Virus record (IMG/VR): IMGVR_UViG_3300036398_001339
Span: 1-42,822 of that record
Reading direction: 5' to 3' (one strand)
Length of the DNA: 42,822 nucleotides
From: a virus
Under the pieces are notes generated by a model. That model did not search any database, was not told where the DNA came from, and worked only from the letters and a program-made list of their open reading frames with translations. Shown piece after piece: positions 24,452 to 39,791 of this stretch. The position numbers were made by a program, and so were the translations under genes. The first letter of the stretch is position 1. Each line of letters opens with the position of its first letter.

Positions 24452-24751
24452 ATGAAACAAAAACATTTATTTGAAATTCCTGAAGACATAGTAACCGCAT
24501 TGGCAATTACTCGCCATGAGGACGGCAAGATTGGCCTCGTAGTTCCGAAGGGAGAGCCGGGGATGATGGAGGTGATGGCTCTCACGTTCGGCGTGTTTGT
24601 CAGCATCCTGCAAGGTGGCGAGCAAGACGGTATTGTTGAACTGCAGCGATTGCGCGATTACATCCAATCTCATTCGCTTGAGCAGGCTCGCGGAAAACTG
24701 GTGCAGATGGCAGTCAAAGTGAAGCTCATGGAGGACGAGGACAATGAGTAA
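24452..24751 (+). CDS. Hypothetical protein
   Basis: A 99-aa protein with a short beta part (ALAITRHEDGKIGLVVPKG), then helices (MMEVMALTFGVFVSILQGG, LEQARGKLVQMAVKVKLM) and an acidic end. No domain recognised. It lies downstream of the structured region and overlaps the next gene by eight bases. Position in the replication block hints at an accessory role only. Confidence 0.55.
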   Translation: MKQKHLFEIPEDIVTALAITRHEDGKIGLVVPKGEPGMMEVMALTFGVFVSILQGGEQDGIVELQRLRDYIQSHSLEQARGKLVQMAVKVKLMEDEDNE

Positions 24752-25370
24752 AATCACGTTTACATTTTCACCTGCAGTTGGCGAACCGATCCATTTGTCG
24801 ATTCCTGTGGGGTATTGCGGTGGGAGAGCTATCCTCACCTTGCCGGACTATCTTACAGCCCAAGACGGGGCGCGCAGGCCGCTTCCCGTGGAAGTTAGCA
24901 ATCAATGGACGGTCATTGATTTGGTTCCAAAACAAGAGGCTCGCATAGATTTAAAGAAGGCGGAGGAGGGAGTAAATGAGGGGTTAGGTAGGATAGGGGG
25001 TGTGGGGGAAAGGAAGGATAGGGGAGAAATGAGGGAGGAACCCACGCTATTTCCCGATCCGAATCCCGTGCAGAAAACCGAGAGCATTTACACGATGCAG
25101 TTCAGGCGAGACGATGGCTACGGCACTTGCTCCGCAAAAGTCATCGACAAAAACATCAAAAAGTACGGACACAAAATTGTTGAGGAAGAAATGTTCAAGG
25201 CTTCACTTTGGTGTGAGGCAGGGAAGAGCAAGCGCAAAACCACGGTAAAGGGCATCGACGCATTCATCCACAAGTGGCTTGAGAGTGCGGCTGAATATCG
25301 GCAAGAGAAACGACTGAAGAAGACTGGCAGTTTGATTGAAGAATATGAAGAAGACCAAATTGGATTCTGA
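24744..25370 (+). CDS. Possible helicase loader / replication accessory protein
   Basis: A 208-aa protein in two parts. Residues 1-70 are beta-rich. A linker follows (about 72-100, DNA 24957-25041) encoded by an extremely purine- and G-rich stretch. The C-terminal part (about 115-190) has DKNIKKYGHKIVEEEMFKA, then KTTVKGIDAFIHKWLESAAE, similar to the C-terminal domain of phage proteins next to DnaB (KxxPxx-x-x-x-x-W-L pattern) that load helicase or organise the replisome. It ends inside the helicase N-terminal gene (25345 start) or just before it (25372). Assignment is tentative. Confidence 0.45.
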   Translation: MSKITFTFSPAVGEPIHLSIPVGYCGGRAILTLPDYLTAQDGARRPLPVEVSNQWTVIDLVPKQEARIDLKKAEEGVNEGLGRIGGVGERKDRGEMREEPTLFPDPNPVQKTESIYTMQFRRDDGYGTCSAKVIDKNIKKYGHKIVEEEMFKASLWCEAGKSKRKTTVKGIDAFIHKWLESAAEYRQEKRLKKTGSLIEEYEEDQIGF

Positions 25371-26022
25371 CATGATTGTCCCTACCGCAACCGAAGCGGA
25401 GCGCGGCATTGCCAGCGTTGCGCTCAACCATCCGAAGACTGTTCTCAACTACATTGCTGAGAAGCGGTTTCAGACAAGCGACATCTTTGAGCCGACATCC
25501 CGTGCGGTTGTGGAGATTGTCATCGACCAGAACAGCAGGGGCGCAAGCTGTGATGCTCGCGTCATCTTCGAGAAACTGCGCGAGCGGTTGCCCGAGACGA
25601 CGTTTGCGCAACTCACGGACTTGTACACGCTGATGCCTATTGAAGGCGCGTTGCCGGAATTGCTGGAAGCAGTTCGTAGCTGCGCCAAGCGCCGCGCACT
25701 ACAGATTGTTGCACATGAGGCGTTGAGCAAGATCAACAAGCCGGATGTGAAGACAACCGAGATTGTCAATGATGTTGCTTTGCAGGTTGATTCAATTCAG
25801 ACACAACTGTCTCCGCCTGCTGCTGAAGATACTAAGACAATGCTGCTTGCTGCTATCACTCGTTACCAGACTGGTGACGACTCTACACAACGGATTAGGA
25901 CTGGTTACGAGAAGCTCGATAACCTGACCCCGATTCGCTATGGAGATTTTTTGGTGATCGGTGGCGAAACCAAATCCGGCAAAACAATGCTAGCACTCAA
26001 TATCGTCGCAAACCTTTTATGA
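25345..26022 (+). CDS. DnaB-family replicative helicase, N-terminal half (split gene)
   Basis: A 225-aa protein: DnaB N-terminal helical domain (residues ~12-115, TATEAERGIASVALN start), linker helix (about 120-155), then the beginning of the RecA-like ATPase with a Walker A P-loop GETKSGKT (207-214). It stops eleven residues later at ALNIVANLL. A normal DnaB would continue within a few residues into the (V/I)-x-SLEM strand; that strand opens the gene at 27807. The stop codon overlaps the next ATG (ATGA), so ribosomes pass directly into the inserted genes. Alternative start is ATG 25372. No intein N-block (Cys after the break) is present. Alone it lacks Walker B and the arginine finger. Confidence 0.85.
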   Translation: MKKTKLDSDMIVPTATEAERGIASVALNHPKTVLNYIAEKRFQTSDIFEPTSRAVVEIVIDQNSRGASCDARVIFEKLRERLPETTFAQLTDLYTLMPIEGALPELLEAVRSCAKRRALQIVAHEALSKINKPDVKTTEIVNDVALQVDSIQTQLSPPAAEDTKTMLLAAITRYQTGDDSTQRIRTGYEKLDNLTPIRYGDFLVIGGETKSGKTMLALNIVANLL

Positions 26023-26336
26023 AAGTTATCAACCTTACTCCTTACCCGATCAACGTAGCGGGACACAAACCAATCGAGCCAGACGGTGAAGTGGCTCGCG
26101 TCAATGCGCAGACCATTCACACAGGCAGCATCAACGGGATGCCTGTTTTTGAGACAGTCGTCAACGGGGCAACGGGCCTGCCGCAACCCAAGAAAGATAC
26201 TGTCTACATTGTCCCGACAATGGTTAGACAAGCCTATCCCGGCCGCCGGGATTTAGTATCCCCGGCCAAGTTGCTCAGAGACAAAGCGGGAGTTGTCAAC
26301 GGATGTCTAGGACTGGAAATGAACCCAAAAATATGA
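26019..26336 (+). CDS. Hypothetical protein inserted in the split helicase
   Basis: A 105-aa protein of the type MKVINLTPYPINVAG, which recurs in phages and bacteria. It has a small beta-rich fold, a GMPVFETVV strand and the segment YIVPTMVRQAYPGRRDLVSP. Function unknown. It starts within the stop codon of the helicase N-half and ends in the ATGA start of the kinase gene, so it is translationally coupled on both sides. Confidence 0.7.
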   Translation: MKVINLTPYPINVAGHKPIEPDGEVARVNAQTIHTGSINGMPVFETVVNGATGLPQPKKDTVYIVPTMVRQAYPGRRDLVSPAKLLRDKAGVVNGCLGLEMNPKI

Positions 26337-26812
26337 AACCAAAATTAATCGGACTGGTGGGGCTGTCAGGCGCAGGCAAGAATACTGCTGCCGATGTGTT
26401 TATCAGGGCTGGCTATCAAGAAGCGGCGTTTGCCGATGAGATCAAACGAATCGCTCGACAGATGGGCTGGACTGGCGAGAAGACTGGAACGGGGCGCGAG
26501 TTGCTCCAAAACATTGGTATGGCTGGACGGGCTTACGACCCCAACGTGTGGATCAACATCGTCAAATGGTGCACCCCAATTCGTCTTGGCCAGCCAACGG
26601 TCATTACGGATGTCCGCTTCCAGAACGAGGCGGATTGGATCAAGCGAGCAGGCGGCTTGCTGATTCGCATCGTGCGCCCAAACATAGAACAAGGAACTCA
26701 CGCATCGGAAACTGAACAAAACAGTATTCAAGTTGACGGAACCGTGATAAATGATGGAAGTGTAGCTGATCTACACGTTAGCATAAAAAAACTACTAAAC
26801 GAAACAATATGA
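26333..26812 (+). CDS. Deoxynucleoside monophosphate kinase
   Basis: A 159-aa P-loop kinase that would phosphorylate dNMPs for DNA synthesis. P-loop GLSGAGKNT (about residues 10-18), AFADEIKRIA (substrate-side helix), VWINIVKW, then ITDVRFQNEADWI, the DVRFxNE signature of phage dNMP kinases, and a GLLIRIVRP strand near 115. The ATG at 26333 overlaps the previous stop (ATGA) and makes the P-loop begin in the usual place; an upstream ATG at 26303 would add ten residues. Lies inside the helicase split. Confidence 0.85.
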   Translation: MKPKLIGLVGLSGAGKNTAADVFIRAGYQEAAFADEIKRIARQMGWTGEKTGTGRELLQNIGMAGRAYDPNVWINIVKWCTPIRLGQPTVITDVRFQNEADWIKRAGGLLIRIVRPNIEQGTHASETEQNSIQVDGTVINDGSVADLHVSIKKLLNETI

Positions 26813-27591
26813 GCATGATAACGCAAATTATCAACGATATGTCGATGTCACAGTATCGGTCTGAAGCTGGCTTGTCTAAGCATCAGTTCGACAACTTCTT
26901 GCAATCGCCAGCGTACTACAAGTACAAGCTGGAGCAAGAGTGGAAACCCAGCAGGGAGATGGTGTTAGGTACGTTGCTGCATAGCTGGGTACTCGAAGGC
27001 AATACGGAATGGGCAGTTGGGCCACAGGTTGATCGCCGCACGAAAGCAGGAAAAGAGGAATGGCAGGTTTCCTGCGAGATGAACATCAACAAGGAAGTCG
27101 TTACTGTCGATGAAGCGGCGCGGCTTGAGGCTGCCGGAAGTAAGGCCATGAAAATGCTGAAGCATCTAAGCAACCTGACTATCGAGGCGTCGATGTTTTG
27201 GGAGAGAGGCGGCGTGCAATGCAAGGGCAGGCCGGATCTGATCTGGCATGACTATAAGGATGACAAGGTTTGTATTGTTGACTTGAAAACTACGTCAGAC
27301 TTTTTCCGCTTTCCGTCAAAGTTTTGGCAGTTTGGGTACGACTTGCAGGCTGCTTGGTACGCCTACGGTTACGAGAGGATCACAGGCATTGAGGCTGACT
27401 TTCGTTTCTTGGTGGTAGACATGGAAGCTCCGCATTTCTGTCAATGGATGGAGATGGATGAGGCGGCATGGACATATGCCAACCAGCGTATCGATTCACA
27501 ACTGCAGTCATTCAAGTTGCTGCAGGAACTGGACGAGTGGCCTGAGCCTTCGGAGGAAGTGAGATTATTGTCCCGTGTACGTCGCGATTAG
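26809..27591 (+). CDS. RecE/Exo VIII-like PD-(D/E)xK nuclease
   Basis: A 260-aa exonuclease-like protein. It has the N-terminal SKHQFDNFLQSPAYYKYK motif of RecE-type and CRISPR Cas4-like phage nucleases, a GTLLHSWVLE motif with conserved His (H58), then GRPDLIW (D143), IVDLKTT (D158, K160) and YDLQAAWYAYGY (Q180), giving the H...D...DxK...Q core. Likely a 5'-3' exonuclease for recombination with the OB-fold protein; no RecT-type annealase is seen. The ATGA start is coupled to the kinase. It is the last recognisable gene inside the helicase split. Confidence 0.8.
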   Translation: MSMITQIINDMSMSQYRSEAGLSKHQFDNFLQSPAYYKYKLEQEWKPSREMVLGTLLHSWVLEGNTEWAVGPQVDRRTKAGKEEWQVSCEMNINKEVVTVDEAARLEAAGSKAMKMLKHLSNLTIEASMFWERGGVQCKGRPDLIWHDYKDDKVCIVDLKTTSDFFRFPSKFWQFGYDLQAAWYAYGYERITGIEADFRFLVVDMEAPHFCQWMEMDEAAWTYANQRIDSQLQSFKLLQELDEWPEPSEEVRLLSRVRRD

Positions 27592-27838
27592 ACGCACAAC
27601 TGTTGCCGATCATGTGCGGCACCTTCCACGACCAAAGATCGTGCAGGAGGTGCTGCACCGAGGCACGCGAGCCGAGTGTCAGCAACTCATCGATGAGCTT
27701 GCTGTACTTCCGCAGCACCAAAGCACAGAGGACATCGAGGTGCTGTTGACCGTGCAGGAAGATCGGAAGCAGAAAAGCTACAACTCAAAAGAAATACGAA
27801 GAGACAATGGAAAAAGGAATACTTATCGTAAGCCTTGA
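27575..27838 (+). CDS. Possible small protein at the end of the helicase insert
   Basis: An 87-aa frame from a GTG at 27575, overlapping the exonuclease end by 17 bases and the helicase C-half start by 32. Hydrophilic, with helical-looking IVQEVLHRGTRAECQQLIDEL. It has no good ribosome-binding site and its last 15 residues, very basic, come from sequence that also encodes the helicase start. It fills the 215-base gap between exonuclease and helicase C-half. It may be real or a leftover of the rearrangement that split the helicase. Confidence 0.35.
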   Translation: MYVAIRRTTVADHVRHLPRPKIVQEVLHRGTRAECQQLIDELAVLPQHQSTEDIEVLLTVQEDRKQKSYNSKEIRRDNGKRNTYRKP

Positions 27839-28397
27839 GATGCCAGCGAGCCAGATTATTGACAGGCTTGTTGCCTGCATTGGTCAGGTTCCGCTCAGGG
27901 CGCTGGCAGAAGGCGTAAAGCTGGAGCGTGACATGGCCGGAATGCAGAGGGCACTCAATCGATTGCACTCCGCGAAGCTTGTGATTCGCGACGATTTGCA
28001 CGACATTGCGTCGATTGTTGCAACTGCACGGGCTATGGCGAAGTCGCCGGATGGACTGGGCGTGTTGCTGGTGGACTACATTCAGTTGGTCAGGTGCGAC
28101 CTTGGCCGCGAGTCTACCCGTGAGCGTGAGGTTGCAGAGGTCAGCCGTGCGTTACGGTTGATCGGGCTTGAGCTTGGTTGTCTGGTGATTTCCATCACTC
28201 AGCTAAACGAGCAGGGTAAGGCGCGTGAGTCGCGAGCCATCCAGCAGGATGCGACCGTGATCATGGCAATCAAGCACGACGATGAGGAAGGTTCGGAGTT
28301 GCGCAAGATCCTGATACCCTACCAACGCAACGGGCCGTGTGGCGTGATGACAACACTCAGGTTCAACGGACGCACAGCCAGCTTTCACACGCCATGA
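27807..28397 (+). CDS. DnaB-family replicative helicase, C-terminal half (split gene)
   Basis: A 196-aa protein that begins at MEKGILIVSLEMP, exactly where the N-half stops, and carries the rest of the RecA core: catalytic Glu in SLEM (residues 9-12), Walker B GVLLVDYIQL (D90), ITQLN (Q132) with the ARESRAIQQD loop and D148, and the arginine-finger region PYQRNGP (R174). In DnaB this last motif is usually KxR; here the lysine is Tyr172. It has no P-loop, so ATP turnover needs the N-half. In-frame coding extends upstream to 27750 but the first start is ATG 27807. Ends in an ATGA overlap with a micro-ORF. Confidence 0.85.
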   Translation: MEKGILIVSLEMPASQIIDRLVACIGQVPLRALAEGVKLERDMAGMQRALNRLHSAKLVIRDDLHDIASIVATARAMAKSPDGLGVLLVDYIQLVRCDLGRESTREREVAEVSRALRLIGLELGCLVISITQLNEQGKARESRAIQQDATVIMAIKHDDEEGSELRKILIPYQRNGPCGVMTTLRFNGRTASFHTP

Positions 28398-37939: not shown

Positions 37940-38057
37940 TCCAACTCAAGAGGCATAGTTGGAACCATTTAGTCGCCTGTGCTTCCGTGTTTCAGGTTGA
38001 GCAGAGGGTACACGCAGGCTATTGACCTGTGAGCCAAATCTAGTAATTTCTACTCAA

Positions 38058-39791
38058 ATGTCAATAGAAACGGATACAATTTCACAAGAAAAGTTGATTG
38101 CCAAGATTCTGAAGTTTCCGATGCAGGATCATCCGATTTTTCCCTGCCCGAACGAGGAGCAGCGCAAGAGGATGATTGCCAATGTTGGCGTGGAGGAAGT
38201 CATGCGGATGTTCCTGACTAGGGAGCAGCGCATCAGAGCAGAGCAGGAAGATCCCTACAGGTACGGTTCAGAGCTGGCGCATTGGCCGGATGCAGATGCT
38301 ATGATGTCCAAGTTTAACGAGTTGGTCGTGCTTGGCGGAAACAGGGCAGGCAAGACCGAGTGGGCTGCCAAACGGTGCGTACAGGCCTTTGTTGGGATGG
38401 ATCTGAATGGGACGATGCCAGAGTGGATCAAGGAACGTGGGTCTAAAAGAGGGCTGAATATCTGGTGTTTTCACACCAATAATATGACCAGCATTGCGAT
38501 GCAGCAAAATGTCTTCCACAAGTACCTGCCTAGAGAACTAAAGGAAGCCAAGCGTAGTCATCAGACACAGGTGGCATGGACACAGAAGAACGGCTTTTCA
38601 GACAACACGGCTGTCTACCAAAAGAACCAGATTTGGTTTCTGAACTATCAGCAGGACATTAAGGTTATTGAAGGTGGCGAAGTAGACATTGTCTGGTGCG
38701 ATGAGTTGGTTCCGCAGGATTGGCTAAACACGCTTCGCTACCGCTTGATTACTAGGAATGGAAAGTTGATAGTTACGTTTACTCCAGTTCAGGGATATAC
38801 TCAGGTTGTTAAAGAGTTTATTACTACGGCAAAAATAACCGAGTATAAGGAATCTGAGCTTTTGCCGGAAAACAACGTCATTACCGTGCCGAAAGGACAC
38901 ATGCCGTACAGGGCTGAGAGTGTCTACGGCAAGCATGGGTGTATCTGGTTTCATTCCAAGCTGAATCCTTACAACAACTGGGAGCGGCATAAACAGGAAC
39001 TCAAGGGGCGCAGTACCCATGAAATCAAGATTCGTGCGTATGGCTGGGCCGATCAGACAGCAGGCAGTCAGTTTCCAATGTTTGGTGACCAGAATATCTT
39101 TTCAGACAACGTCCTGACTGCCGCGCCCCAAGGTACCAACTACATGGTTGCAGATCCGGCAGGTGCCCGTAACTGGTTTATGCTTTGGTGCAGGGTAGAT
39201 CAACATGGGATTATCTGGATCTACCGTGAGTGGCCCGACGCAAGTTATGGAGAATGGGCGCTGCCTTCAGACAGACCCGACGGAAAGCCCGGCCCCGCCC
39301 AGCGTAGCGGAGCAGGAAAGGGGATCAACGAGTATACAGACCTGATCTGGCAGCTTGAGACACACAAAGACAAGACAGAAGACATTGCCGAGCGTTACAT
39401 TGACCCTCGTAGCGCAGGTTCAGAAGTGACCAGCAAAGAAGGCGGCATTACTCTGCTAGATCTTATTGCTGACGCTACCAATCCTGTCTATTTTCAACCT
39501 GCTGCTGCTGTTACCGTTGAGGAAAGGGTGTTAATTATCAACGACTTATTGTGTTTTGACAGAGATCATCCAATAGAAGTTGGCAAAAATCATCCAAAAC
39601 TAATGGTTCATACGTCTTGTCAAAACCTTATTTATAGTTTAAGGGAATGGACTGGGGCTGACGGACAGAAAGGTGCCAGCAAAGATCCTGTTGATGCTTT
39701 GGGGTATCTAGTTGTCATGCAACCTAAGCACTACGGCGGCGAACAATGGGAGAAGCAGATGAGAGAGTTCTCAAGATGCGGTTCCTATTGA
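38058..39791 (+). CDS. terL: Terminase large subunit
   Basis: A 577-aa DNA-packaging motor. ATPase domain: Walker A GGNRAGKT (93-100), an ATPase coupling region, and Walker B IVWCDE (211-216) with E216 catalytic. Motif III-like VTFTPVQGYTQ follows (about 239-250). Nuclease domain (RNase H-like): an ADPAG strand near residue 370, YIDPRSAGSE near 455, and KDPVDALGYL near 553 with the last acidic residue. Start ATG 38058 used; GTG 38022 is in frame but unsupported. The small subunit is not adjacent. Confidence 0.9.
   Translation: MSIETDTISQEKLIAKILKFPMQDHPIFPCPNEEQRKRMIANVGVEEVMRMFLTREQRIRAEQEDPYRYGSELAHWPDADAMMSKFNELVVLGGNRAGKTEWAAKRCVQAFVGMDLNGTMPEWIKERGSKRGLNIWCFHTNNMTSIAMQQNVFHKYLPRELKEAKRSHQTQVAWTQKNGFSDNTAVYQKNQIWFLNYQQDIKVIEGGEVDIVWCDELVPQDWLNTLRYRLITRNGKLIVTFTPVQGYTQVVKEFITTAKITEYKESELLPENNVITVPKGHMPYRAESVYGKHGCIWFHSKLNPYNNWERHKQELKGRSTHEIKIRAYGWADQTAGSQFPMFGDQNIFSDNVLTAAPQGTNYMVADPAGARNWFMLWCRVDQHGIIWIYREWPDASYGEWALPSDRPDGKPGPAQRSGAGKGINEYTDLIWQLETHKDKTEDIAERYIDPRSAGSEVTSKEGGITLLDLIADATNPVYFQPAAAVTVEERVLIINDLLCFDRDHPIEVGKNHPKLMVHTSCQNLIYSLREWTGADGQKGASKDPVDALGYLVVMQPKHYGGEQWEKQMREFSRCGSY

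Follow-up and report, generated by a model that had tools for sequence, protein, structure and literature searches.

A DnaB-type helicase encoded by two separate genes, with the break just after Walker A, in a group of uncultured phages

Two genes at the dnaB locus

The stretch analysed here, called the window, is the 42.8 kb IMG/VR virus record IMGVR_UViG_3300036398_001339 (positions 1-42,822). Its sequence for the replicative helicase DnaB is divided between two genes, referred to as the N-half and the C-half (Table 1). The N-half encodes the N-terminal domain, the linker helix region, the first strand of the RecA core, and the Walker A motif with its helix. It starts at an ATG at 25345 (a TTG lies upstream, at 25336) and its end reads GGETKSGKT-MLALNIVANLL-TGA, with the stop at 26022, 11 residues past the GKT of Walker A. 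The C-half opens with MEKGILIVSLEM, i.e. with the strand that follows the Walker A helix.

A preliminary description of the sequence had placed the two ends at these positions, and had proposed that the joined halves lack few residues or none. Both statements hold when the halves are compared with DnaB models. On TIGR00665 the N-half covers positions 3-219 and the C-half 225-431 of 435, leaving 5 positions between them. The corresponding segments are 2-43 and 49-254 on PF03796 (model length 255), and 145-377 and 382-575 on PHROG 19. In profile alignments with Bst DnaB (2r6a), the N-half corresponds end to end to residues 11-229, and the C-half to residues 233-436. By these curated models the halves are complementary parts of one DnaB, and nothing essential is lost at their junction.

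Table 1. Features of the split dnaB locus in the window; helicase genes and motifs first, then neighbouring genes.
Feature	Position	Strand	Basis or remark
DnaB N-half, 225 aa	25345..26022	+	Sequence, PF03796, PHROG 19, TIGR00665
Walker A, GETKSGKT	25963..25986	+	N-half residues 207-214
DnaB C-half, 196 aa	27807..28397	+	RecA core remainder, strand 2 to end
SLEM with catalytic Glu	27831..27842	+	C-half
Walker B, LLVDYIQL	28065..28088	+	C-half
Sensor Gln of ITQLNE	28200..28202	+	C-half
KxR position, Tyr172-Gln-Arg174 (Arg finger)	28320..28328	+	C-half
208-aa gene, conserved neighbour of the N-half	24744..25370	+	Overlaps N-half start
g105, 105-aa 'INLTPH' family phage protein	26019..26336	+	PHROG 21731/30542
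Deoxynucleoside monophosphate (dNMP) kinase	26303..26812	+	PHROG 139, 1.7e-38
RecE/exonuclease VIII-like PD-(D/E)XK nuclease	26809..27591	+	DUF3799; PHROG 412, 1.2e-51
sORF, 87-aa conserved protein, function not assigned	27575..27838	+	Conservation in relatives

The same break in relatives

Scanning IMG/VR with the C-half returned 80 loci, 73 of which hold both halves. In all 73 contigs the break point is the same as in the window, and two genes are present in every locus. The N-half always ends shortly after 'LNIIANL', on TAA (56 loci) or TGA (16 loci). The C-half starts with a Met located 8 residues before SLEM, and the homologous ATG was found in 72 of the 72 loci checked. As an in-frame stop immediately precedes this ATG in 16 loci, a longer C-half is impossible there. 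Some N-halves are extended by ∼15-28 residues past the break (L042, L075), as expected for a free, exposed end. In all, 49 different distances, from 1,323 to 3,785 bp, separate the stop of the N-half from the start of the C-half. The core order N-half, g105, RecE, sORF, C-half is kept, and extra genes come and go in the gap, a C5 cytosine methylase among them. More loci were obtained with an alignment of N-halves and with an alignment of divergent C-halves as queries, and the additional N-halves that were inspected end in the same way. An assembly chimera, which the preliminary description had named as a possible source of error, and a break produced by chance are both ruled out by the recurrence of the split in 73 other contigs.

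Among isolates, no close relative was found at the DNA level and none for the N-half protein, and all matches to the C-half were below 60% identity. A single close relative came from the cellular genome collection; it lies on a 13-kb contig of a Pedosphaera metagenome-assembled genome and is likewise split. We conclude, from the genomes compared, that a widespread group of uncultured phages carries the split DnaB, and that the arrangement is clade-wide. A separate observation concerns phrog_11530, a family of 184 positions to which no function is assigned: of the C-half (window 27807-28394) it matches residues 66-191 only, hinting that other DnaB fragments are encoded alone in phages.

Selection on the two halves was estimated with the Nei-Gojobori method, over the usable pairs of 19 diverged lineages. 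The N-half had a median ratio of nonsynonymous to synonymous substitution rates of 0.25, and the C-half one of 0.12. Residues K213 and T214 of the N-half, and E11, D90, Q132 and R174 of the C-half, are invariant in these lineages; the DnaB N-terminal domain PF00772 gave weak matches in 15 of the 19 N-halves. Pairwise distances of the N-half and of the C-half correlate at 0.945, the highest value among the gene pairs tested, with four genes lying between them. This correlation is suggestive of a partnership of the halves, and is partly expected from shared descent. A dnaB that has decayed, in a phage using the host DnaB, would also look broken relative to its relatives. Against such decay, both reading frames are open and under purifying selection across the 19 lineages, and the two halves occur together in 26 of 26 long contigs, so that we hold it to be extremely unlikely. 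An intact dnaB elsewhere in the genome would have called the split helicase into question. No complete DnaB_C match was present in the window or in any of the 26 long contigs, only the two partial pieces, with the proviso that the records may be incomplete.

Origin of the split and proposed assembly of the helicase

The preliminary description had suggested searching relatives for intact versus split dnaB genes. Besides the 73 split loci, the search brought out a sister lineage in which the gene is whole. Among isolates, phage C75C1 (OQ984151) gave the best terminase match (∼31-34% identity), and its DnaB is intact, a single protein of 442 aa. In eight IMG/VR contigs whose terminases are C75C1-like, one intact DnaB match each was likewise found, in an open frame of 431-450 aa. 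C75C1 and the related contigs share with the split clade a terminase of ∼33% identity and the same core spacing, and differ from it by a dnaB of one gene (∼440 aa) in which the KxR motif is kept. Counted from the P-loop (GK) to SLEM, the spacing is 26 in the joined halves of the window, versus 27-28 in the nine intact relatives. In a tree, the split sequences group on a single branch supported at 100/100 (the Paenibacillus phage and Vibrio plasmid rows, badly cut by trimming, were not used for conclusions). Since phages of the sister backbone keep one intact DnaB with the same spacing, the simplest reading is a single ancient fission of an intact dnaB, in which essentially nothing would have been lost. 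The intact DnaBs of the C75C1 group have a peculiarity of their own, a P-loop APTSCGKS that lacks the first Gly of Walker A (e.g. L155, 13072-14397, minus strand).

The preserved spacing would also be found if an RNA intron, of group I, of group II or trans-spliced, restored a single DnaB mRNA, and a large intron was the alternative left standing by the preliminary description. It does not withstand the comparison. No Rfam intron matched the split region of the window, even at E up to 5, nor any of eight relatives at gathering thresholds. Moreover, the insert is freely variable in its length and in the genes it holds, the N-half retains a stop codon and the C-half its own ATG, and the ∼15-28 extra residues of some N-halves lie past the break. 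An intron is therefore very improbable.

Split inteins occur in gp41/DnaB-type helicases, in which the gene is fractured and genes lie between the parts. Trans-splicing of the protein by very diverged intein halves would be in line with this, and with the presence of an intein in the clade itself: a mini-intein of ∼132 aa interrupts Walker A of the terminase large subunit in some relatives (GGNR/CLAGET...HHN/SGKT, slashes marking its borders; L165 832-2946, L305, L312, L325, L334), the terminase of the window (38022-39791) being without it. However, no intein N-part or C-part was found at the break on either half. The end of the N-half is no more than a few residues from the break and the C-half starts directly at the extein, which leaves no room for a split intein. 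The preliminary description had seen no intein N-block and no C-terminal His-Asn, and indeed no residues are available past the break to hold them. The terminase intein serves here as a positive control, as it shows what an intein of this clade looks like and that the same tools recognise it. Trans-splicing is excluded by the window sequence, and we give it practically no credence. Fractured genes with split inteins, gp41-type helicases and others, are known from metagenomes. The split DnaB resembles the gp41-type ones in that a helicase gene is fractured, with genes between the parts, and differs from them in that protein splicing cannot join its two chains.

Phage enzymes split into two genes, the products of which reassemble, have been reviewed, and include Aeh1 NrdA, gp43A/B and the T4 topoisomerase (PMC2988022). 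In Aeromonas phage Aeh1, nrdA is split by mobE and the enzyme is fully functional; the DNA polymerase of phages 44RR and 25 is split into gp43A and gp43B, the halves of phage 25 co-purify and are active, and in 44RR the gp43 parts are separated by untranslated sequence and not by an intein (PMC2988022). Like Aeh1 NrdA, the split DnaB is a phage enzyme of DNA metabolism divided in a critical region, with coding DNA between the two genes. NrdA is another enzyme, and a free-standing homing endonuclease accounts for its break; none was recognised in the DnaB gap, and the DnaB split is fixed across a diverse clade. More precisely, the gap open reading frames of 31 loci were listed, and no homing endonuclease (HNH, GIY-YIG) was recognised among the ten likeliest insert genes, which were scanned and gave one C5 methylase and one weak Tad2-like match; most small frames of the gap gave no family assignment. 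With gp43A/gp43B the split DnaB shares the production of a core replication enzyme from two separate genes. The gp43 enzyme is a polymerase, not a ring ATPase; in DnaB, the break separates the P-loop of an ATP site from the catalytic residues of that site, placing them on two chains. The split DnaB belongs in kind with these genes-in-pieces enzymes, two conserved genes corresponding to one in relatives. Our literature search found no report of a split DnaB without an intein, which is weak evidence as few subscription papers and preprints were covered.

The sheet of a RecA-type fold has the P-loop strand in its interior. A heterodimeric protomer is proposed because the P-loop strand and helix are on the N-half, and the other core strands on the C-half. 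Both genes being on the same strand within one gene block, the N-half would supply the collar domain at the N-terminus, the linker, and the strand and helix of the P-loop; the remainder of the RecA fold would come from the C-half, which carries the catalytic Glu, Walker B, the sensor Gln and the Arg finger. The P-loop strand of the N-half would complete the sheet of the C-half with no peptide ligation. Neither chain alone would be able to form the ATP site; the ATPase protomer would be a heterodimer, and the ring six N-C pairs. The break itself lies in the loop that joins the P-loop helix to strand 2, and genes for replication and recombination are now found between the halves.

AlphaFold2 models, in which each half was predicted as a single chain, fit such a two-chain RecA core in outline. 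The predicted local distance difference test score of the N-half is ∼90 in the N-domain, and 46-57 in the RecA piece alone; the C-half model is weakest at residues 133-151. With Foldseek, both half models match DnaB structures, and the N-half also matches the N-domain of M. tuberculosis DnaB (2r5u).

The KxR motif is a further point at which the split DnaB departs from the usual helicase. The preliminary description had singled out a Lys to Tyr change at this position (Tyr172) as an oddity of the window. The residue is correct, but it is not peculiar to the window: the lysine is replaced in all 73 C-halves, by I (45), Y (17), F (10) or W (1), the Arg being invariant, and it is retained in the C75C1-like intact DnaBs.

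Several observations weigh against a two-chain helicase born by fission. Because the KxR lysine is absent, the motor may depart from the canonical DnaB type. The confidence of the half models is moderate (77.5 and 75.4). Identity to the nearest intact DnaBs is only ∼28-36%, the stem of the split branch is long and no transitional form was seen. The loss of the lysine throughout the clade would also suit halves that no longer form one motor, the N-half binding the host primase or joining host DnaB rings, and the C-half being a partner or inhibitor of host DnaB. Furthermore, the genes scanned in the replication region of the window included no recognisable primase or polymerase, so that the phage probably depends on the host replisome. 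Yet all nucleotide-binding and catalytic residues except the KxR lysine are invariant, which is unexpected unless the halves act together, and the N-half and C-half distances track each other more closely than those of any other gene pair. Separate roles are for these reasons unlikely.

The two-chain helicase, on the other hand, is well supported, because the break is conserved, both genes are under purifying selection, no second DnaB and no intein is present, and the sister DnaB is intact. The two-polypeptide helicase of the preliminary description stands in these respects; the non-covalent assembly of the halves, together with their stoichiometry and activity, is what we infer from the comparisons. 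Very probably, DnaB is made in these phages as two polypeptides that bind without ligation and rebuild the RecA core together, an arrangement that arose once by fission. It is likely that two unligated chains make up each protomer as an obligate heterodimer, its KxR lysine changed to a hydrophobic residue, and that this form is fixed in the clade and possibly times the assembly of the motor.

Replicative ring helicases are usually treated as single-chain RecA motors. If true, a natural and stable fission between Walker A and the catalytic Glu would mean that the RecA fold tolerates assembly from two chains. It raises the question of how ring building and loading proceed if the two chains of every protomer have to pair first, and would provide a ready-made split helicase for mechanistic studies. 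The lost KxR lysine gives a testable prediction on the coupling of ATP hydrolysis between subunits. In practice, annotation pipelines would label each half as a partial or hypothetical gene.

Genes between and beside the halves

The preliminary description had counted three to four genes between the halves. The 105-aa gene, the dNMP kinase and the RecE-like nuclease were all recovered, and a fourth, sORF, is conserved. The coupling of g105 to the N-half stop by an ATGA, at 26019, was likewise as described, and g105 is always the first gene after the N-half. The INLTPH family to which it belongs is also present in unrelated phages, of Paenibacillus, Microcystis and Pararheinheimera, and in an Altiarchaeum virus record; in Paenibacillus phage Unity, ∼3 kb separate the INLTPH gene from an intact dnaB. 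The place of the dNMP kinase differs between lineages: some have it in the gap, others downstream of the C-half.

The 87-aa sORF overlaps the start of the C-half by 32 nt, in another frame. As it is conserved in relatives, we consider it a real gene: it is found in their gap, and in some lineages its end lies inside the start of the C-half. Its family, which has an LPRPKIVQ motif, gave no Pfam or PHROG match. Upstream of the N-half, no family match was found for the 208-aa gene; from its position alone, one may guess at an initiator or a loader. A second piece resembling residues 113-186 of this gene is present in the gap of four loci (L017, L020, L022, L044), between RecE and sORF.

Two insertions of other kinds were seen in the gap. 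In one sub-clade, a C5 cytosine DNA methylase gene lies between the 87-aa gene and the C-half (L024 5365-6780; L017, L025, L035, L049). In L063 (6378-6725) and in L067, one gene of the gap matches Tad2-like (Thoeris anti-defence 2-like) sequences weakly, at its end.

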